Positions 52,963 through 64,000 of a stretch of DNA of 64,000 bases are shown piece after piece (position 1 is the stretch's first letter; each line of letters starts with the position of its first letter). The notes under the pieces were generated by a model that saw only the letters and a list, made by a program, of their open reading frames with translations, did no database searches and had not been told where the DNA came from. Source of the stretch: Edaphochlamys debaryana (Eukaryota; Chlorophyta; Chlorophyceae; Chlamydomonadales). The stretch covers positions 682,001-746,000 of the forward strand of contig JAEHOE010000033.1 of assembly GCA_016858145.1 (NCBI GenBank), in the 5' to 3' direction. Both the position numbers and the translations under genes were made by a program.

Positions 52963-55900
52963 ATGCGCGCCTCTGGGGCGAAGGCAGGCGGGAAGGGCGC
53001 TAAAGCGACGTCCGCGGCGAAGCCATCGACAGGTGCGAGCTGTCGTTCCCTCGCCTAGACGACGTCTAGCCAACATCGCTAATACCTAGAACCCTGCTGC
53101 ATGCGGGCGTCCGGTGTTGTTGGCGTCGGGGAGGTGGAGGGCAGTGCAGCGGGGAAGGGGTGAAGGTGGTGGGGGTGCAGGGAATACAAACGTGTGGTTA
53201 TGCCCTGCTCCCACACCGAATCGGACGTGCCTATCCCGACTCGCTTCATCCAAGCCAACCCCCACCAACTCCCTCCAACACCTCGTCCCTCAGTTGCAGC
53301 TGCCAAGCCAGGCAAAGGCAAAGCCGCTGCCCCGGCGGAGGAGGTGGAGGCGGAGGCGGTTGCTTCGGACACCCCCGCACCGGGCGCCATGAAGCCCGCT
53401 GGCGGCAAGGGCGCCGGGGGCAAGAAGGGCGCAGCGGCGGCGGCCTCCGCAGCGGGGCCCCACTTCACGGAGGAGGAGCGGACAGAGGTGGGCGCGGCAC
53501 ATGCATCCCCGCATCTGCTGGGTAGCTTGCAAGCGTGTACTCCTTTCTGACTACGTAGGGGGGCGGACAGACAGCGCATGTGTAGAGCCTCGGTGAGGCG
53601 CGACCATGTCGGCCCCAACCAAGCAGCTTCAGACCTTCAGTTCTGCTGTCCTTTACGATTCCGCCGCTAACGCGCAGTTCCGGTCCAAGCTGCTGGACTG
53701 GTACGACAGGACACACCGCGTGCTGCCGTGGCGCCGTACGCCCCATTCCAAGAAGGTGGGTTTGTAGGTTGTAGGAGACGGGGGAACCGCGGGTGTGGCG
53801 AGGGCGGACCCCAACGTCGGTGGCTTGGGGGCCTGGAGACAGGGAGGAGGCGTCAGCGACGGGCGGGACTAGGACGTAGCGCATGGGTTGGAGGGGTGAT
53901 GATTCGCGCGCCGATGGGGGCCGTGTTTTGTCAGGCCGTAGCGGGGCACACGTCATTGCCTCGGCGCAGAAGCGCCCGTCAGATGAGTGGTGTTGCTGCT
54001 TGAAAGCAGCGCCGTGCCTGTCTGTAGTCCGGGCCAGGCCGGGGCGACCGGCAGGGTGAGGGGTAAGATCGTTGGGGAGAGGTGGTGTTGGCTCACGGGA
54101 CGCAGGGTGCAGGGGTGGGTGCTTGGGTCCGAAGAGGGCTGAGAACCTCACTCGCAATTCCGCTCATTCCCCTGTCTCAGCAACTTCGAGACCCATGCCA
54201 CGCACCCAAGCCCATAACCTCCCGGATACATTACCCTGAGCTCGACCCCGGCGCCCACCCCTCCCCCGGTGGCGGCAGGAGGCGGCCGCTGGCGGCGCGG
54301 AGGGCGGCGAGGACGCCGTGGGCCCCGCGCCCGCCAGCCTGCCGGACCAGCAGTTTGCGTACTGGGTGTGGGTGTCGGAGGTGATGCTGCAGCAGACGCA
54401 GGTGCGCGGGTGCAGGGGACCGCAGGACTGGCAGCCAGCGGCCCCCGGGGAAGCGCTAGGAGACTCGCCAGCCGGCTTGCGGCAAGGCCAGGCAAGAGCG
54501 AGGGGCTGCAGCAGGCGCCAGTGTGAGGAGCGCTCAGCCTTGGGCGCTTAACAGAGGACGGTCGGGTGGTATCCGGGGTCCACTGAGGGAGCATATAGGG
54601 GGCTTGCTTTGGCTCGTGGCCTACTTGCGGCCCTTTCTTACATCCTTACACGCCCGTGCCTCCCACGACCACCACCCTGTCCAGGTGGCCACTGTCATTC
54701 CCTTCTTCAAGCGCTGGGTGGCCAAGTGGCCCACCGTTGCTGACCTGGCAGCCGCTGACGTTGACTCGGTCAACGCCATGTGGGCGGGGCTGGGGTACTA
54801 CCGCAGGTGCGTGGGGAACTGGGAGGGAACGGCGCAAGAGCTCTGGTCATGTGCAAAAGCAGCCCGGCCGATGGGCACGAGACTGAGCACACGATCCCGC
54901 CCTGCCTTGCCTGCCCCAGGGCCCGCTACCTGCTCGACGGGGCGCAGTTCGTGGTCCAGAAGCTGGGCGGCGCCTTCCCCACTACCGCCGCCGAGCTGCT
55001 CAAGATCCCCGGTGCGTACGGCGGTACGGCAGTGCGGCGGTTGGTGGTCCGGGTCGTGATCCCGATCGAATGTGCATGGTGGGCTGTCATACTGCTCGAA
55101 TACAAACCCCATTTTCATCGCTCTCCCTCCGTCAGGTGTGGGGCCATACACGAGTGCCGCTGTGGCTTCCATTGCCTTTGGCTCGCCCGCGGCCGCCGGT
55201 GAGCGGAGCTCCCTGGGCGGGACGCGGCAAGCTCGCCCCATGTGACTGCGTCAGCCACCGCGTTGTTAATGTGCTTAGGCCGCGACACGCCTTGCGCTCG
55301 CCCCGACCCCGCTTTCCACCTCCTGCCCACACCTCCCAACCTGCCCGCCCCCATCCCCGCCCTCCCGCCCTCCCCCAGTGGACGGCAACGTCATCCGCGT
55401 GGTGTCCCGCCTGCGCTCCGTGGCCGGCGACCCCACCAAGCTCACGCACCTGCACAACGCCCTGGCGGCGGAGCTGCTGGACTCGGAGCGGCCCGGCTGC
55501 TACAACCAGGTGCGCTCTGGCCCTGTTTCAGCCATTACCTTGGCTGCTACAAGATATTATCGAATGGAAGAATAAGTCGGGTTCGGACGGCTGCGACAAC
55601 CTGGTCCGATGGCCCTGGCCCTATCGCTGGGAAACAAGCAGGACACGTTAGAAGCATCAAAGTCAAAGGCTTCTAGTCCGGCGTTGGCTGAGCAAGGGAG
55701 CACAGCAGCCCGCCACCACTCGCACCTCTCGCCTCGCCCTCACCTACCGGCACCCGCCCCACGTGTCCCCAGGCGCTGATGGAGCTGGGGGCCACCGTCT
55801 GCCGCCCCGGCGCCGGCGGCCCCGACTGCGGCGCCTGCCCGGTGCGGGGCGTGTGCCGGGCGGCGGCGGAGTGGGAGGCCTACCTGGCGGCGGGGGGCGC

Positions 55901-57819
55901 CCCCGACGTGGAGGACGCGCCGAGGGTGACCAACGTGAGGAAGCGGGGGTGGAGGGGTGGGGTGGAGGGGGGCGGGGGACAGGGAGAGGGGTGGGCGGGT
56001 ACCGTGGACTTGAGACCCGGAGCGAGGAGTTCATGGGCTGGCGGGATAGGGCTCAGCGGGGGCAAGCCAAGCCGGCCCCGCCCCGCCTCGTCGTGCCCAC
56101 TCTCACCCGCCCCCTGCCCGCCACACCCCTTCCCCGTCGCCGACACCTCCCCCGCCCACACCTTCCCTGCCTCCCCCCCCAGTACCCCGGCAAGAAGGCC
56201 GTCAAAGGCAAGCGTGAGCAGGCCGTGGCAGTGACCGTGCTCGAGGTCATCTGCGCCAAACAGCAGCAGCAGCAGCCGGACAGCAAGCAGCCGCAAGGCA
56301 AGCAGGAGAGGGAGCAGGACAAAGCGGGGGAGAAGCAGCAGGCGGCGGTGGCGGCCGAGCCGGCCCCGCGGAAGCGGCAGAAGACCATGGCGGACTTTGC
56401 GCTGGCGGCGGCGGCGCGGAAGCAGGCGGCGGCGGCGGCAGGTGACGGCGGCGGCGCTGGCGGTGCTGGCGGCGGCGGTGGGGCGGACCTGGAGGCGCTC
56501 GTGGCGCGGGGCGTACGGCACTACCTGCTCGTCATGCGGCCTGAGGTACGGCGTTGGTTCTCGTATGTACAGCAGCAACTGTGCAGCTCTGCAGGTTGCC
56601 GGGTGCAGGTTGCCGGGTGACCGTACTGCGCGGGTCTTCTCCATCTGACGGATGTCCTTCCTCCGTCGTCGCGTCTGCACTCCGCAGGGCGGCCTTCTGG
56701 CGGGTCTGTGGGAGTTCCCCGGTGAGCACTTGGGCACCGTGGCGTGGGTGCATGCTTGCCTTGCCTTGCAACTGCAGCAGCGATAACTAGCCCCCATCCC
56801 ACCTCCTCCATCTTGCTGTGATCAGTCAATGTCAGCCGCTCCCTCGTGCCTTGCTTATGCCCTGCCCTGGACCGATGCCCCTTCGGCATTCACTTCATGC
56901 TTACATCGTGCCCCCTGGTGCAGGTGCGATCATGAGCGACGTCGTCCCCGAGGGCGAGGGCGCCGCGGCGGCGGCGGCACCGACGGCGGCAGAGCGCCAG
57001 CGGGCCGCCGAGTCCCTGCTCACCCGCCTCCTGGGGCCCTGCGCGGAGGGCCTGGCGGCGCCGTCGGGCTCTTCGGCCGCGGCGGGGGCGGGGCAGAAGC
57101 GCGCGGCGGAGGCGGCCGACGGCGCCGCCGCCACCGCCGCAGCCGGTGGCTCGCTCCGCGTGCTGGGCCGTCACGACATGGGGCAGTACGTCCACGTGTT
57201 CAGCCACATCCGTCAGACCAACTACGTGCAGCGGTTGACGGTTGTGTACGACGGTGACGTGGCCTCGCTCCTGCAGCTGACGGGCGCGAGCGAGGTAACC
57301 GCCGTAACCGTCGCGCCCGCGGCCCAGGAGGACGAGGCCAAGAAGGGGGGCAAGGGCGAGGCGAAGGAGGGCGAGGGGGCGAAGCGGTTCTCAGGCCGCA
57401 AGGCAGCGGCCAAGAAGGAAAAGGAGGAGGAAGACGAGGAGGCGGAAGAGGCCGACGAAGAAGAGGCGGAGGCGGACGGCGAGGCTGAGGAGCAGGAGGA
57501 GGGGGAGGGCGCGGGCGGCAGCAAAGCGGGGTCCAAGCCGGGCCGCAGCACGGGCAAGGGCAAGGCCGCCGCCGGGGCAGGCGGCGAGGCGGGGGCCAAG
57601 CCCGCGCTCGCGTGGGCGACGCGGCAGCAGATCGAGGGCCCCGGCCTGCCGCTGAGCTCGGGCGTCAAACGCATTCTGGAGCTGGCGGTTGGGGGCTCGG
57701 CGGGGGCGGGTGCAGGGGGAGCGGGCAAGGCCGGCGGCGGCAAGGCGGCGGGGAAGGCAGGTGGGGCCGGCAAGGCGGGGGCCGCCAAGGGCAAGGGCGG
57801 CAAGGCCGGGGGCAAGTAA
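52963..57819 (+). CDS. MUTYH: Adenine DNA glycosylase, MutY family
   Basis: MUTYH removes adenine mispaired with 8-oxoguanine. Twelve exons give 773 residues in a continuous frame: 52963-53032, 53300-53487, 53678-53755, 54279-54401, 54685-54806, 54920-55011, 55136-55198, 55379-55509, 55773-55934, 56183-56545, 56688-56721, 56924-57819. The basic N-terminus ([14 protein letters not shown]) may be a nuclear signal. The catalytic glutamate is in SEVMLQQTQ, the helix-hairpin-helix in [20 protein letters not shown], and the catalytic aspartate in VDGNVIRV. The Fe-S cysteines are C-x8-C-x2-C-x5-C; the family norm is C-x6-C-x2-C-x5-C. The C-terminal NUDIX-like domain is seen in [12 protein letters not shown] and [15 protein letters not shown]. 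It is interrupted by an Ala/Gly/Gln-rich linker and a long Lys/Glu-rich insert, and the gene ends in Ala-Gly-Lys repeats. The protein is much longer than bacterial MutY (about 350 residues) or human MUTYH (about 535). Confidence 0.93.
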
Positions 57820-58693
57820 GTGAAGTAGGGGCGGGGCAGGCGGGGCGGGTGGGAAGGTGCTTGGGGGCTGGGTCGGGCCCGCGACTGGGGGCCGGGCAGG
57901 AAGGAGGCGGGGCGTAAAGGAGGAACCCGGCGGGGGAGCAGGGGGGTTGCTCGAATGGGTGACAGGCGGGTGTTTGCAAAGGATCGCTCTTAACTGTGCA
58001 GGTGGGGTGTGCACCTACAAGCGGTCTGATCAGTGTGCGATATCGATGCATTTCGTTATTGATGTGTTTGTGCGGGCAGTGGGGCCCCTGCAGGACGCTA
58101 CGAAGGCATTGGTGGTGAGCTTTCGGTTCACGTACTCTGGTGCTGTGTGCGCAAGTTCTCCGCGCATGGTGTTATTGGTAGGCAGTAGGACCAGGACCTA
58201 GAGGACCAGATGGACCAGTCCTTGTCCCTATGGTGTGGGCAGGGAAAACTGATCAACCCCGCTCTAACAAACTGAGCGCAGTAGTACTGTTAGAGCGCCT
58301 CATGCATCTCGTATCCTTTGTAGGTGCGGTAGTTGCGGGCACGGCAGACCAGCGCACCGGCGTGGGCATGACCCTTCACGGGTGCCGTACACGCGGCGTT
58401 TGACAGCCCAGGCTCGATGCGTCCGCGCGACCCTGTGGGGCTCTGTGACATTATCAGCCTAGGCAGAGCCAAGGCCGACTGGCTGCGTTGGCTGAAGGCG
58501 GGATGAGCGGTGCACGCGCCAAAGGCCTGAGCCCTTGTCGAGACCGAGCGGCTGGCATCTGCGCACCTTCCAGCGGCGTGCGTGTACGTATAAGCACGGT
58601 GGGCTGCTGGCGAGCTCCATCTTTGTGGCTTGCGCAACCTGTTCTGCCATTCCACTCGCACTCCTGCAGGGCAAAGGAGATGGCGAGCTGAGA
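57820..58693. other. Spacer between MUTYH and the zinc-finger/OAS-like gene
   Basis: No firm gene was found. No TGTAA was seen within 500 bp of the MUTYH stop. A minus-strand frame at 58,290-58,427, preceded by a TCACAG acceptor and ending HEAL and TAA, looks slightly gene-like but stands alone. An in-frame open stretch with a CTGCAG acceptor at about 58,670 leaves room for upstream exons of the next gene. Confidence 0.4.
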
Positions 58694-61602
58694 ATGGACA
58701 CCAGACCTGGAGGACCCCTCGGTCATGTGCACGGCTCGGCCAGCTCGTTGCGAAGGCTGACCGTGGCCAAGGCCATCGGCGTTAAGGATGTCGGTCACAT
58801 CGGAGACTCCGCCCCGCCGCTGTCCCAGTGCGACCGCTGCGGGGCGCGGAGTGATGCGGTGGCATACGAGCACTGCGACGTTTGCGACGGCTGCGTGCCC
58901 CAGGTCGGATGCAAAGTTGGTTTGGGGTCATGGCATCCTAGCTAGCAGCCTAGCTGCCCGCCACAGGCCTTACCACTGCCTGACCGGCCTAAAGCTCTCG
59001 GCCCCGCTCTCCTTCTCGCAGTCCTCGCCGCACGTGTGTGCCCCCATGGCCGCTCACCGGGAGTGCGTGAGCTGCCGGCGGTACCTCTTCTCCGGCGGCC
59101 CGCTCGCGCCCCTGCCGGACTGCGGCCACCCCGCCGCCCACGCTGCCTGCCTCCACCTCATCGCCGCCCACGGCAGCTCCCGCGCCCTCGCCGCCCTGCA
59201 GTCCCGCTGCCCGCTGCCCGCACTGCCCTTCACCATTTGCGATCGCAACGTGTCCCGACTCCGAGCTGTATCTCTGCACGCGCGGCGAGTACCTTCGGCG
59301 CATGAACCAGCTGACGGCGGCGTTCGTGGTGCCGGGCGAGGAGGAGGTGGCGCAGGCGAGGGCCGCGGTCAGCACGGTGGTCAAGGTGCTGCAGAAGGTG
59401 CCGGAAGTCAAGGTGGGGATGCGGGGAGCACAGGGTAAGGGCCGCCAAGGTGGAGGTCATCCCGCTCCCTACCCTCTAGGCCGGCTGGATTCCTGCCGCG
59501 CCACTGTCTCCTCCGCTTATGCTGCGACACGCCCTAATCACCCATCCCCCGCCTAGGTGGACCGGGTGCACGTGGGCGGCTCCTTCGGCCGCAAGACCAG
59601 CGTCAAGGGGCGCTTCGACGTGGACCTGTCCGTGTTCGTGAACGGGCTGGACCCAGACCCCCACGAGGCGGCCACAGTCCTCCAGGCGGTAGGACGGAGT
59701 TTTGAGCCGTTGCTCGAAGCTGAGGGAGAGGTCACGTGGAAAGGTCCTTTCTGTTCGAGCCACGAGGGGCCTTACCTGCGGCTTGCCACCTGCTCAGCTC
59801 TGCCCTCGCCCCCACGCACTCCCTCGCGGCCCTGCGCTAACCTCACGCCTGCGCCCCACTCCCTGGCCCCGCTGCCCCGCAACCCGGCCCCCAGGCCGCC
59901 TCACGGCTGGAGGTGTGCATGGCCGTACCCGTACGACAGAAGCCTGGCATGCGCATGCTGGAGTTCACGTGGGACGAGCTGGAGGTGGACTTGTGTCTCG
60001 TCCAAAACGTGGCGCGCTGGTACAACTGGAACAAGGCCGCCAAGCAGGTCGGTTCAGGTGAATCTGCATTCTAAGCGCTAGAGGCCCTCTCATATTCGGG
60101 CTAACGATATGGTATGGACTTGGCTGCTTCACAGGTGGAAGTGCTGGTGGGGCCCCTGCTGCGGATGACGGACGCAGAGGTGGCCGCGCTGGAGGACCAG
60201 GCCGGGCCCAACCGGGCCCGCGAGAGGGGCGTGGGCGAGGCCCTGACGGCGTTCGTCAAGGCCCAGCCCGGCACTGCCACGGAGGCGGTGCGCCTGTTCA
60301 AGGCGAGCGGGGCCGCGGGGGGGCAGAGCAACCTAAGACCCTTGCGGTAGGGGGCCGAAGGCTGGCCTGCAGGCGGGCTACTTACATGTCCCCTCCTGCA
60401 TCGTTTGCGCTCCCCTCCAGGCCTGGGTCAAGTGCGGCCTGGGCGAGCGGGGCCTGCTCGACCCCTCCAAGCTGCCCTCCGTTGCGTTGGAGCTCTTGTT
60501 GCTCCACGCGTTCCTCGAGGAGGAACGGGCGCCGAGCAGCGAGTTCGACGGCATCAGCCCCGGCCGGTGAGCAAACGCCGGTCTTCAGGGAAGTAGCCCT
60601 GTTGGCCCACGTCGGCCATCCCCCGCACAAGTCAGGCCCCTCTGAAACAAGGAAACCCCCTCCGTTCATCCCTAGCAGGTCCCTGCTCCTCCGCACCTTC
60701 CTGGGCGCCCTGGACACCGCCTCCCGCCTGGACGAGCCGGGGGGCGGGCCGGTGGTGATGCTCGACGCCGGGGCCCTGGGCTACCGGCGGGAGCAGGGCG
60801 AGCGGTTCCGGGCGTGCTGGGGCGCGGAGGGGCCCTTCGTCATCCACCCCATCGACCCAACCTGCAACGTTGCAAAGGTGAGCACAAGAGCCGTGAGTGT
60901 CCAAACACGTTGGGTCAGGCAAACATGTATCCGTCAAACATCGCTGAACATCCTTGGTAAGCACCCCGCGCTTTCGTGCTGCACCCCGCACAGGCTCGCG
61001 ATGACGGCCGCCCGGCCTGGGACTGGCCGGCGCTCGCCCTCGAGGCCCGGGCGCTGCTGACCGTTGTACGGCACACCAGCCTCGAGACACTGCTGTCGTA
61101 CTCCACCCTGGGAGCGGCCCTGGACCGCCTGGCCGCGCTGGATCCGGAACCGGAACGGGAACCGGAACTGGAGGCGCCGCCCACTCCCGGGCGGCGGCAG
61201 ACCCGCCTGCCGCCCTGCGGAGGGGGGGCGGGAGCGCTGGAAGCGGCAGCTCGAGAGGATTACAGGGGGTGGATGGAGCGGCGTGAGGAGGAGGAGGAGG
61301 AGGACGGGGAGGAGAACGCCGGGTGGTTGGCGTCCGAGGATGCGGAGGAGGACTGCTCCTGGCTGGGCCATGAGGAGGGCGGGGGCGAGGGGGGCGAGGC
61401 GCCGGAGCCATGGCACGAGTGCGACGAGGGGCCCAGGGCGTGGGTCGAGGAGGTGGAGGACGACGGCGGGGAGTGGTGGGAGGCGCAGGCGGCGGCGGCG
61501 GAGGAGCCGTGGGAGGGGCCGTGGCTTGCGTCGGAGGTCGCGGAGGAGGACGTCGATTGGCTGACGTCAGTGGAGGCGGAGGCGGAGGCGGACTGGTACT
61601 GA
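58694..61602 (+). CDS. CTCHY-RING zinc finger fused to OAS-like nucleotidyltransferase
   Basis: Exons: 58694-58903, 59022-59412, 59557-59688, 59895-60047, 60135-60302, 60421-60566, 60679-60877, 60994-61602. The N-terminus carries CDRC, HCDVCDGC and HVC, a CTCHY-type zinc finger. It is followed by a RING: CVSC, CGHPAAHAAC and a final RCP(H)C pair, the order seen in RCHY1/PIRH2 and MIEL1 ubiquitin ligases. Downstream is an oligoadenylate-synthase-like domain: GGSFGRKTSVKGRFDVDL (OAS spacing from Gly-Ser to Asp-x-Asp), the third acidic residue in LEFTWDELEVDLCL, KLPSVALELLLLHAF, and IDPTCNVAK like the OAS DPTNNV motif. All three catalytic acidic residues are present, so nucleotide polymerase activity is plausible. 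The C-terminus (from about 61,270) is a Glu/Trp/Asp-rich tail. The frame changes by +1 between RING and transferase at a 7-bp tandem duplication (59,205-59,218); without it the frame is continuous, about 666 residues. The intron starting at 60,303 has a GC donor. The start codon is tentative. Confidence 0.72.
59205..59218 (+). repeat. 7-bp tandem duplication that shifts the RING frame
   Basis: CGCTGCC occurs twice in a row, followed by the related CGCACTGCC. The first copy codes Arg-Cys-Pro of the last RING cysteine pair. Reading on through the second copy gives Leu-Pro-Ala and a stop at 59,438. With one copy, the codons would read RCPHCPSPF and run on into the nucleotidyltransferase. Confidence 0.8.
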
Positions 61603-62148
61603 CCGAGGGCGGCCCCAGACGAATGGATGCGCCGGCCGTCTGGTGACGGGGCATGTGCGTGAGCGGGTGGGTTGTTTGTGGCAGACGGCTACACGGGCAG
61701 TCAGCAGATGACCTGTGCACGAGTGCGAGCACGTGGGACGTAAGGGCTCAGGGGCGGGAGGCCAAGCGCCTCAGACTGCAGTTGAAGAAGCTCACAAGTG
61801 TTTCTGCAGTTTCCCGAGCGGGCCTCAGGCATGGCAGTCGATTGAGCCGTACTGAGCCTGAAGGGGGCCCATGCCCATTGGGTCGGAGCGGCATCGAAGC
61901 GTTTACACGTGTGATGCCACCGACCCCACCAAAGCATTCTGCCAGAGGTCTCCCCCCGTCTTCCCGTCGAGCCCCCCCGTCTTCCCGCAGCGACCCTTCG
62001 CCCAGGCCCCGGCTCCACAGGAGTCCATGATAACACACCCGCCTCGCCCCAACAGACCTCATTGTCAGCTTGCACTCATCGCCCAGCCCCCTACCCGCCC
62101 GGCCATACCCTCACTCGTCACCTGCCTGCTGGAATTTCTGTACCTCGA
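61603..62148. other. Convergent 3' spacer
   Basis: No gene was found. TTACA at 61,903-61,907, i.e. TGTAA on the minus strand, lies about 245 nt past the stop of the minus-strand gene at 62,149 and is its likely poly(A) signal. No TGTAA was seen on the plus strand for the OAS-like gene. Confidence 0.5.
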
Positions 62149-64000
62149 TCACTCCTCCGCCCCCGGTGCCTCTGAACCCGTTTCGCCCCCGGCCGCTTCC
62201 GCCAGCCCCCGCTGCATCGCTGCCCGCCGGGCCTGCCGCCGCAACGACACACGCGCAGTCCGCAGCTCCTTCCCTGCTGCCGCCTCCGCCTCCGCCGCCC
62301 GCAGCGACACAGCCGCCGCCGCCGCCGCTGGCCCCTGGGCCGCCTCAGCTCTAGCCCCTGCCTCCGCTGTCGCCGGCGCCGGCGCCGCCAGCTCTGGCGG
62401 CGCCACAACCGCCGGCAGTGCAACCACGTCCAACCGCCCATTCGCCTCTGCGAACGGCGCCTGGGCTTGGGCCTGCGCTAGCGCTCGCTCCGGCAGGGGT
62501 GGGCTCTCGAGGCCTCGCGTTGGCGCCGCCACAGCCTCTTGCGCCGCCGCTGCGGTGACCACCACAGTCGGCTGCGTGAGCGCCGCGTCCTGCGCGGCCG
62601 CCGGCGGGGCCTCGGCCGCAGCGGCGGCGGCTGTGGCAGCGGCGGAGCCTGCAGCTGGCGCCGCCGCCGGCTGGCGCTTCGCGGCGCCCCTGGTCTTGGG
62701 GGCCGCTGGCAGCGGCGGTGGCGGCGGCGGCGGCGGCGGCGCAGCCTTGTTCTGGCGGTCCCTCTGGCGCTTGGCCCTGCGCCGCTCCTCCGCCGTCAGC
62801 CCTGGCGGCGCCGCCGCCACTGACACGTCAGCTACGGCTTCCGCCACCGCCGCCCCTGCCGCCAGCCCCTTCAGCGTCGGCACGTCAACCGCCTGCTGCC
62901 GTGGCTGCTGCAGCTCTACCGCCGCCGCCGCCACCACCGTAAGAGCCGGCTCTGGAGTCACCGCCGCGGTCTCAACAGCTGGCAGCTCATTTGCATCCAC
63001 CGCATCCCCTGAGGCTGGCCGCCAGCGCCGCCGCGGCTGCGGCGACGCAGCAGCTGCCACTGGCGATGCCTCCGTCGGCAGCGGTTCAGTCGGAAGCGCT
63101 GCCGCCGCCTCCGGGCGCATGGTCACGGCCGGCGGCGCTGGCATGGCTGCAGCTGCCGCCACACCCGTCGCCGCCGCCGCGGGTACAGGAGCTGCCGCCG
63201 CCGTCGTCGTCGACGACGCGACGGCGCCCGAGCCGCCGTCAGCGGCCTCAGCCGTTGGCTCCTGCGGCGGCGGCGGCGGCGGCGTCCGCGACGGCCCCTG
63301 GCGCCTCAGCCGCCGCTTCGCCAGCAGCGCACGCGAGCCCTCAAACACCTCCTCACGGCTCTCCCGCGAGCGCCGCTGCGCCTCGTCAGCGTCCCGCGCC
63401 TCATCCGCCGCCGTCGCCTCCGCCACCGTCGTCGCCAGCTCCGTCGCCGCCGCCGCCGCCGAAGCCGCGCCCGCCGCTGCGCGCTGCAGCCTCGGCCGCC
63501 GCCGATCCCACGCCCCTTCCCTGTCGTCCTCGTCAACGCTCGGTTGCCGCCGGCTTGCCCCGCTGGGCCCCTCCGTGACTGACGGCCGGGCTCTGCCCCC
63601 CCTGGCCGTGCCGGGTTGCGCAAACACGCTGCCGCGCGCCTCTCGCGCCGCCTCCGCGGCCGCCTCCGCCGCCGCCACCCCAGTGGCGCCCGCCGCCTCC
63701 AGCGCCGCCACCACGGCTTCCGGCAGCTTCGCGCTGAAGCTGGCGAACGCGCGATCCAGCGTCACGAGATCCATGTACGACAGCGTGCCGGCGGCGGCGT
63801 GGCGGGCGGCCACGGCCGACGCCTCGTCCAGCCAGTGCTGAGGGGGAAGGAGTGAGGGGTCGGGGGGAGACCAGGAGTTCTGTTGCTGGGAAGCGTCTTG
63901 GATTGCGCCCTTTCCTAACAGCCATGCCCTCATCTGCTCACCGCAAGATCCCCGCCCCGCCCACAAGCACGCGCATGCTGGAACCTGGATTTGAGCCATC
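62149..64000 (-). CDS. Ala/Pro-rich protein of unknown function (3' part)
   Basis: The last exon is 63,837-62,149, 562 codons plus stop without an intron. It joins in phase 0 to an exon ending at 63,942 (donor GTGAGC) that runs off the window edge. The joined start reads HARACGRGGDLA-HWLDEASA and then SYMDLVTLDRAFASFSAKL, which looks helical and may be the end of a folded domain. The rest is mostly Ala/Pro/Glu-rich and likely disordered. It contains basic patches LLAKRRLRRQG and EERRRAKRQRDRQNK followed by a proline run, which could bind nucleic acid or act as nuclear signals. I do not recognise the family. The frame is kept open for 1.7 kb and ends at a clear stop followed by TGTAA, so I think it is real. 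Confidence 0.6.
   Translation of the reverse strand, partial: MAQIQVPACACLWAGRGSCGEQMRAWLLGKGAIQDASQQQNSWSPPDPSLLPPQHWLDEASAVAARHAAAGTLSYMDLVTLDRAFASFSAKLPEAVVAALEAAGATGVAAAEAAAEAAREARGSVFAQPGTARGGRARPSVTEGPSGASRRQPSVDEDDREGAWDRRRPRLQRAAAGAASAAAAATELATTVAEATAADEARDADEAQRRSRESREEVFEGSRALLAKRRLRRQGPSRTPPPPPPQEPTAEAADGGSGAVASSTTTAAAAPVPAAAATGVAAAAAMPAPPAVTMRPEAAAALPTEPLPTEASPVAAAASPQPRRRWRPASGDAVDANELPAVETAAVTPEPALTVVAAAAVELQQPRQQAVDVPTLKGLAAGAAVAEAVADVSVAAAPPGLTAEERRRAKRQRDRQNKAAPPPPPPPPPLPAAPKTRGAAKRQPAAAPAAGSAAATAAAAAAEAPPAAAQDAALTQPTVVVTAAAAQEAVAAPTRGLESPPLPERALAQAQAQAPFAEANGRLDVVALPAVVAPPELAAPAPATAEAGARAEAAQGPAAAAAAVSLRAAEAEAAAGKELRTARVSLRRQARRAAMQRGLAEAAGGETGSEAPGAEE

Follow-up and report, generated by a model that had tools for sequence, protein, structure and literature searches.

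The OAS-like protein OASL combines an OAS fold with ubiquitin-like domains, the human protein being enzymatically inactive, and to our knowledge the ubiquitin ligase (E3) RCHY1, or Pirh2, carries no nucleotidyltransferase. Among the CD-NTases of eukaryotes, the OAS type is reported to be the most common, with OAS-like proteins in eight of 12 eukaryotic supergroups, in the survey by Culbertson and Levin (2023, PMC10732462), and in bacteria the conjugation of cGAS by Cap2 is described as raising the output of cyclic GMP-AMP, cGAMP (PMC10097602). Here we analyse an OAS-type gene of the green alga Edaphochlamys debaryana, HYH03_007767, and the zinc-finger remnant upstream of it, in a window of 64,000 nucleotides (positions 682001-746000 of contig JAEHOE010000033.1, here C33). 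A first-pass annotation had read this locus as one protein joining a CTCHY-RING ubiquitin ligase module to an OAS-like nucleotidyltransferase; we found a fuller form of that fusion in a paralogue on a second contig, C162, and in the related alga Astrephomene gubernaculifera, but the window copy is broken. We consider it fairly probable, taking in the working proposed below for the fuller copies, that the window gene comes from a volvocine family that joined an RCHY1-type E3 to an OAS-type enzyme and that the E3 was lost here.

The annotated gene (P0004; plus strand, 59302-61602; 505 residues) maps letter for letter onto the window when spliced, and five of its six introns are GT-AG, the other being GC-AG. 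The public model holds the enzyme only, and the zinc-finger module lies outside it, upstream. The nucleotidyltransferase motif, the ELEVDL sequence and the DPTCNV sequence singled out in the first-pass annotation are all found in spliced exons of this one gene, and its assignment to an OAS-like enzyme is borne out by the family searches. OAS1_C (PF10421) scored 23.3 bits in a Pfam scan, against a curated cut-off of 19.9, and was the sole family above its curated cut-off on the enzyme half in the Pfam, NCBIfam and PADLOC scans; it exceeded the cut-off in three of the five family proteins scanned, the others being P0003 (27.7 bits) and P0005 (22.9 bits). When a profile of eight family proteins was compared with the PDB, the top seven matches were OAS entries, with human OAS2 first at 3e-15, the best OAS1 structure at 3e-13 and OAS3 last of the seven at 4e-5, these E-values summing several pieces (best single stretches 2e-6 for OAS2 and 1e-8 for OAS1); the bacterial CD-NTase CdnC followed at 1.7e-3. 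The glycines and serine of the nucleotidyltransferase motif and the three catalytic acids (G317, G318, S319, D331, D333 and D380 in the numbering of P0002) are invariant in an alignment of five family proteins, A1. Membership of the window enzyme in the OAS superfamily is, on these comparisons, well supported.

The paralogue, HYH03_017255 (P0001; C162:216.9-219.9k, minus strand), has CHY, CTCHY and RING exons. Its CHY exon scored 35.3 bits against the zf-CHY cut-off of 31.3, and its RING exon continues into the first enzyme helices in one stop-free frame of 320 codons, the ends of which run into introns; the model places no intron between the RING and the first enzyme helix. As annotated, P0001 starts within the CTCHY region and does not include the CHY exon, which, judging from the Astrephomene protein, probably belongs to the gene; without that exon the match to RCHY1 was 2e-12. 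The Astrephomene homologue, Agub_g3221 (P0002; 634 residues, labelled 'Zinc finger protein' in one source), has CHY, CTCHY, RING, linker and enzyme in that order and is 45% identical to the C162 join over 98% of that query. It matched RCHY1/Pirh2 (PDB 7ynx) at 3.3e-28 over residues 6-185, zf-CHY at 37.2 bits (cut-off 31.3) and OAS1 at 1.9e-5. Agub_g3201 (P0007), a further but incomplete Astrephomene model, resembles it (84% over 69% of P0002); part of the enzyme region occurs again at its end, which suggests a duplication or assembly trouble. The Astrephomene gene models are described as read from StringTie RNA-seq assemblies with TransDecoder (PMC8608804), and the fused frame should therefore lie on one assembled transcript. 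CHY, CTCHY and RING occur together in the C162 and Astrephomene copies and not in the window copy. We regard the CHY-CTCHY-RING-OAS fusion predicted in the paralogue and in Astrephomene as well supported, and the RCHY1-type and OAS-superfamily identities assigned to its two halves as supported. E. debaryana has two other CHY-RING loci, on C55 and C32, and neither contig gave an OAS-like match.

In the window, the C-x2-C...C-x-H-x3-H-x2-C pattern and C-P-H-C are present at 59064-59226, just upstream of the enzyme gene. When the Astrephomene homologue was searched against window positions 55001-64000 with tblastn, the RING stretch matched at 7e-15 and the CTCHY stretch at 7e-6; the window query matched the C162 RING stretch at 9.9e-10, and the paralogue module is 49-61% identical in the aligned pieces. 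Because of these matches, and of a paralogue with the same module, the Cys/His motifs of the window are beyond chance. The CTCHY and RING patterns named in the first-pass annotation are therefore real, but neither is whole: the CTCHY match (Cys/His cluster at 58829-58915) is clear for the second half of the domain only, with Gln replacing the His of 'WHC' and no third Cys in 'CGIC', and the last pair of the RING, CPHC, is out of frame with the rest because CCCGCTG is doubled at 59203-59216. With this frame break, the reading of all the motifs as one exon series is not borne out, and no frame shared by the RING and the enzyme was found in the assembly. A weak extension of the CTCHY match upstream to 58631 (tblastn E 0.011) may be what is left of the first half, and there was no convincing CHY finger among the tblastn matches listed for two queries against 55001-64000. 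The ligase half of the window copy is decayed, being truncated and out of frame in the assembly, and the gene therefore most likely makes the OAS-like enzyme alone. Splice forms that might rescue the frame were also sought by hand in the RING exon, non-exhaustively; a GTGAGC donor at 59067, paired with a CTGCAG acceptor that ends at 59201, preserves the frame of the RING at the cost of its core, and was rejected.

The window gene might instead be a working CTCHY-RING-OAS fusion, the seven-nucleotide duplication being either a mistake in the assembly or an allele particular to the strain. Counting both frames, eight of eight RING ligands are present, and the CTCHY/RING junction, read by hand, is phase-0 and stands at the same position as in the C162 paralogue. 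Nonsynonymous divergence (dN) from C162 is below synonymous divergence (dS) in the RING (0.33 and 1.03 over 41 hand-picked ungapped codons), as it is in the enzyme (0.27 and 0.59 over 129 such codons); the RING was therefore under constraint for much of its past, these figures being averages over the window and C162 lineages. However, the assembly is described as corrected in three rounds each of Arrow and Pilon (PMC8226300), the duplication does not account for the absence of the CHY finger and of half the CTCHY, and the public model starts at 59302, with BRAKER and RNA-seq being the method given in the genome paper (PMC8226300). We consider a working fusion in the window unlikely.

The protein homology searches scored the 8,000, 7,998 and 8,000 candidates sharing most words with the query, and among these we found at least eight family proteins, five from E. 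debaryana, two from Astrephomene and one without a named source; because scoring was limited in this way, the searches do not show that other algae lack the family. Three of the eight (P0001, P0002 and P0007) carry CTCHY-RING, and one paralogue, P0008, is already named 2'-5'-oligoadenylate synthetase by one source (the name is incomplete). The genome searched (141.9 Mb, 502 contigs) has 12 OAS-like places by a hand count from 43 matching pieces: five on C33 (611.7-617.9k, 622-624k, 624-626k, 657-660k and the window gene), one on C162 and six more distant, three on C75, two on C71 and one on C161. CTCHY-RING matches were found at two of these places, C162 and the window. The OAS1_C-side signature is present at all six distant places, and a piece with the nucleotidyltransferase motif at two (L042 and L043); the six (L041-L046) have the signature HPIDPTCNLA and similar, no ligase module was detected at them, and they are perhaps a second OAS-like subfamily. 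The PF10421 profile run over the whole genome gave no matches, as did its controls, and carries no weight. In a tree of nine enzyme rows, the window gene groups with the unfused C33 genes (87/92, open fork), a placement that would fit loss of the ligase half and is not well supported. Because the window holds a ligase remnant while fuller modules lie on C162 and in Astrephomene, the simplest history would be a fusion in the ancestor followed by loss of the ligase on C33, for which support is modest. Of the four further C33 OAS-like genes (611700-660000, L037-L039), outside the window, none had a detected RING; P0003, also on C33, has its exons separated by roughly 4 kb and a hydrophobic stretch at the start of its model.

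In the explanation we favour, the ancestor would have carried, on a single chain, an RCHY1/Pirh2-type E3 (CHY, CTCHY and RING) and an OAS-superfamily nucleotidyltransferase. In the window copy, the CHY finger and half or more of the CTCHY domain would have been lost, the duplication putting the RING out of frame, and the gene would most likely yield the OAS-type enzyme alone, from the annotated start at 59302, to act as a free enzyme. For the fuller proteins we infer both activities, a trigger, a product and a link of control: on triggering, the enzyme half would convert ATP into an adenylate-type second messenger, and the E3 half would set the level or place of the enzyme by ubiquitinating the protein or a bound partner, a control comparable to the ubiquitin-like conjugation that tunes bacterial CD-NTases. 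An alarm function, a 2'-5' oligoadenylate product, ligase activity and an antiviral role, along the lines of the first-pass annotation, are putative. More tentatively, and in our view doubtfully, the family may be a one-chain volvocine enzyme of immunity or stress whose ligase and synthase act on each other: by sensing or tagging a target, the ligase would switch the synthase, and loss of the ligase half would leave free synthases such as the window gene.

A different role for the zinc module of the fuller proteins, as a substrate-binding or targeting part that, like Pirh2, reads alanine-rich C-degrons on stalled nascent chains and brings the OAS half to stalled ribosomes, seems to us quite unlikely. 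Pirh2 is reported to bind Ala C-degrons through Tyr23, Arg41, Arg54, Leu92, Asp94, Gln99, Arg109 and Ile110, among others (PMC10148881), and the equivalents of Tyr23, Arg54 and Arg109 are kept in Agub_g3221, in a hand mapping that allows for chain numbers shifted by one from those of the paper. However, Arg41 is changed to His, Asp94 to Ser and Gln99 to Met in both Agub_g3221 and C162, and Arg54 to Lys in C162; in Pirh2, R41A is reported to have abolished Ala-degron binding and D94A or Q99A to have lowered it more than six-fold (PMC10148881). What the zinc module reads as substrate could differ from Pirh2.

As for the enzyme half, it is very unlikely to be a template-free RNA nucleotidyltransferase of the poly(A)/U or CCA type rather than a second-messenger synthase. 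NTP_transf_2, MTPAP-like and archaeal CCA enzyme profiles matched it weakly, below cut-off, and the structure predicted for P0004 had Foldseek matches to TUT/GLD-2 and NF90, but only OAS1_C exceeds a curated cut-off there, oligonucleotide-cyclase profiles also match it (weakly), and the first CCA enzyme in the PDB profile search stands at 0.11, against 3e-15 to 4e-5 for the seven OAS entries. That the C162 and Astrephomene models are two neighbouring genes joined by annotation error is highly improbable: the annotated P0001 lacks its CHY exon, but the C162 RING and first enzyme helix share one stop-free genomic frame, intronless there in the model, and transcript-based models of a second species give the same domain order.

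Several results nevertheless weigh against the favoured explanation, of a fused family whose E3 was lost from the window copy. Neither Agub_g3221 (17.6 bits) nor a hand-made C162 join (16.5 bits) reached the OAS1_C cut-off, and P0001 itself was unlisted at E<=1. Across the Pfam, NCBIfam and PADLOC scans, which gave no RING or CTCHY family for the proteins submitted, zf-CHY and OAS1_C alone passed a curated cut-off. In the profile check that the first-pass annotation had proposed, OAS1_C was above cut-off in the window gene, but no Pfam RING or CTCHY family matched at E<=1 in the window stretch, nor in P0001 or P0002, and in a PDB search the window zinc-finger stretch alone did not match RCHY1; with both searches unmatched, the CTCHY and RING assignment in the window is made because of the homologues. 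The first RING Cys pair has Ser in the window where RCHY1 has Ile (CVSC against CPIC), and the CTCHY piece has dN 0.32 above dS 0.19, over 11 codons, too short to read. The structure prediction also proposed gave poor models, with a mean predicted local distance difference test score of 45.9 for P0002 and 50.7 for P0004 (alignments of eight rows): the P0004 model ranks OAS2 first in Foldseek (1.4e-4, TM-score 0.22), a ranking that gives weak support only, but the P0002 fusion model had no match below 1e-3. Only two named species are represented among the eight proteins found in the candidates scored, and the C33 paralogue P0006, outside A1, shows Asp-Ala-Glu without a third Asp, so not every family member need be active. 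Finally, the duplication could be an assembly fault.

Table 1. Features of the HYH03_007767 locus and its ligase remnant (window positions)
Feature	Position	Strand	Basis
CTCHY second half (CDRCG...HCDVCDGC), Cys/His cluster 58829-58915	58694..58915	+	donor GTTGGT at 58916; homology search, alignment
Proposed intron, 106 nucleotides, GTTGGT...TCGCAG, between CTCHY and RING stretches	58916..59021	+	sequence
RING stretch HVCAPMAAHRECVSCRRYLF...LPDCGHPAAHAACL, first six ligands	59022..59202	+	homologous to C162 and Astrephomene RINGs
Seven-nucleotide tandem duplication, CCCGCTG x2, splitting RING frame from enzyme frame	59203..59216	+	sequence
CPHC, last RING pair, in enzyme frame	59215..59226	+	sequence
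HYH03_007767 exons	59302-59412, 59557-59688, 59895-60047, 60135-60302, 60421-60566, 60679-60877, 60994-61602	+	exact spliced mapping
GGSFGRKTSVKGRFDVDL	59575-59628	+	in spliced exons of HYH03_007767; aligned with OAS1 GGSSGKGTTLRGRSDADL
GGSFGRKT nucleotidyltransferase motif and first two catalytic acids (D-x-D 59617-59625)	59575..59625	+	alignments, including OAS1 GGSSGKGTTLRGRSDADL
ELEVDL, third catalytic acid (Asp codon 59988-59990)	59976..59993	+	invariant in five-protein alignment A1
HPIDPTCNV (DPTCNV 60854-60871), OAS1_C signature	60845..60871	+	aligned with OAS2 PVILDPVDPTNNV
Acidic, Trp/Glu-rich C-terminal tail (start approximate)	61180..61602	+	missing from the other four A1 proteins

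Around the gene, three open frames and one 48-residue piece had no Pfam family over cut-off. Further upstream, positions 55790-55870 match an endonuclease III iron-sulphur motif below cut-off (15.7 of 20.5 bits) and possibly mark a MutY-like gene. Elsewhere in the genome, the sole match to the KEN-type RNase domain (PF06479) is at C144:233403-233812, with the kinase motif HRDLKPHN upstream, which we take to be an IRE1-like arrangement; this domain is therefore probably that of IRE1, and no RNase L was identified in the genome search with PF06479, ankyrin repeats not being searched.

Among the papers listed in literature searches, judged by titles and the beginnings of abstracts, there was no description of the CHY-CTCHY-RING-OAS architecture, in agreement with the first-pass annotation, which knew of no such protein, and no functional work on an algal OAS-type enzyme. 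'Zinc finger' and 'RING' have no whole-word occurrences in the main text of the eukaryotic survey (PMC10732462), which is described as having searched EukProt v3; since the sources given for P0001 include EukProt, that sequence may have been in the survey set. What appears to be new is the presence of an RCHY1-type E3 on one chain with an OAS-superfamily enzyme, both parent families being already known, and the finding weighs more for the family than for the window gene.

Compared with the described systems, the window gene has in common with the OAS superfamily the GGS motif, the D-x-D and third Asp, and OAS1_C with its DPT-N-V signature, but its algal relatives are predicted to join a CHY-CTCHY-RING module to these. 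Agub_g3221 and C162 have the CHY, CTCHY, RING order of RCHY1/Pirh2 (7ynx), whereas several of the Ala-degron residues are changed in them and the window copy keeps remnants only. OASL, of which PDB 4xq7 was among the profile matches, resembles the algal fusion in having an OAS fold and a part of the ubiquitin system in one chain, although that part is a ubiquitin-like tail in OASL and would be an E3 in the algal protein. A natural fusion of OAS with a ubiquitin ligase points directly to a control partner, and would link ubiquitin and nucleotide signalling in a eukaryote, as in the bacterial cyclic oligonucleotide-based antiphage signalling system (CBASS). Type II CBASS likewise couples a CD-NTase to ubiquitin-like conjugation, but as described it is bacterial and uses a separate E1/E2-like protein, Cap2, without a RING fusion (PMC10097602); if our explanation is true, the one-chain ligase-synthase would be a eukaryotic counterpart of this ubiquitin-like control of bacterial CD-NTases.

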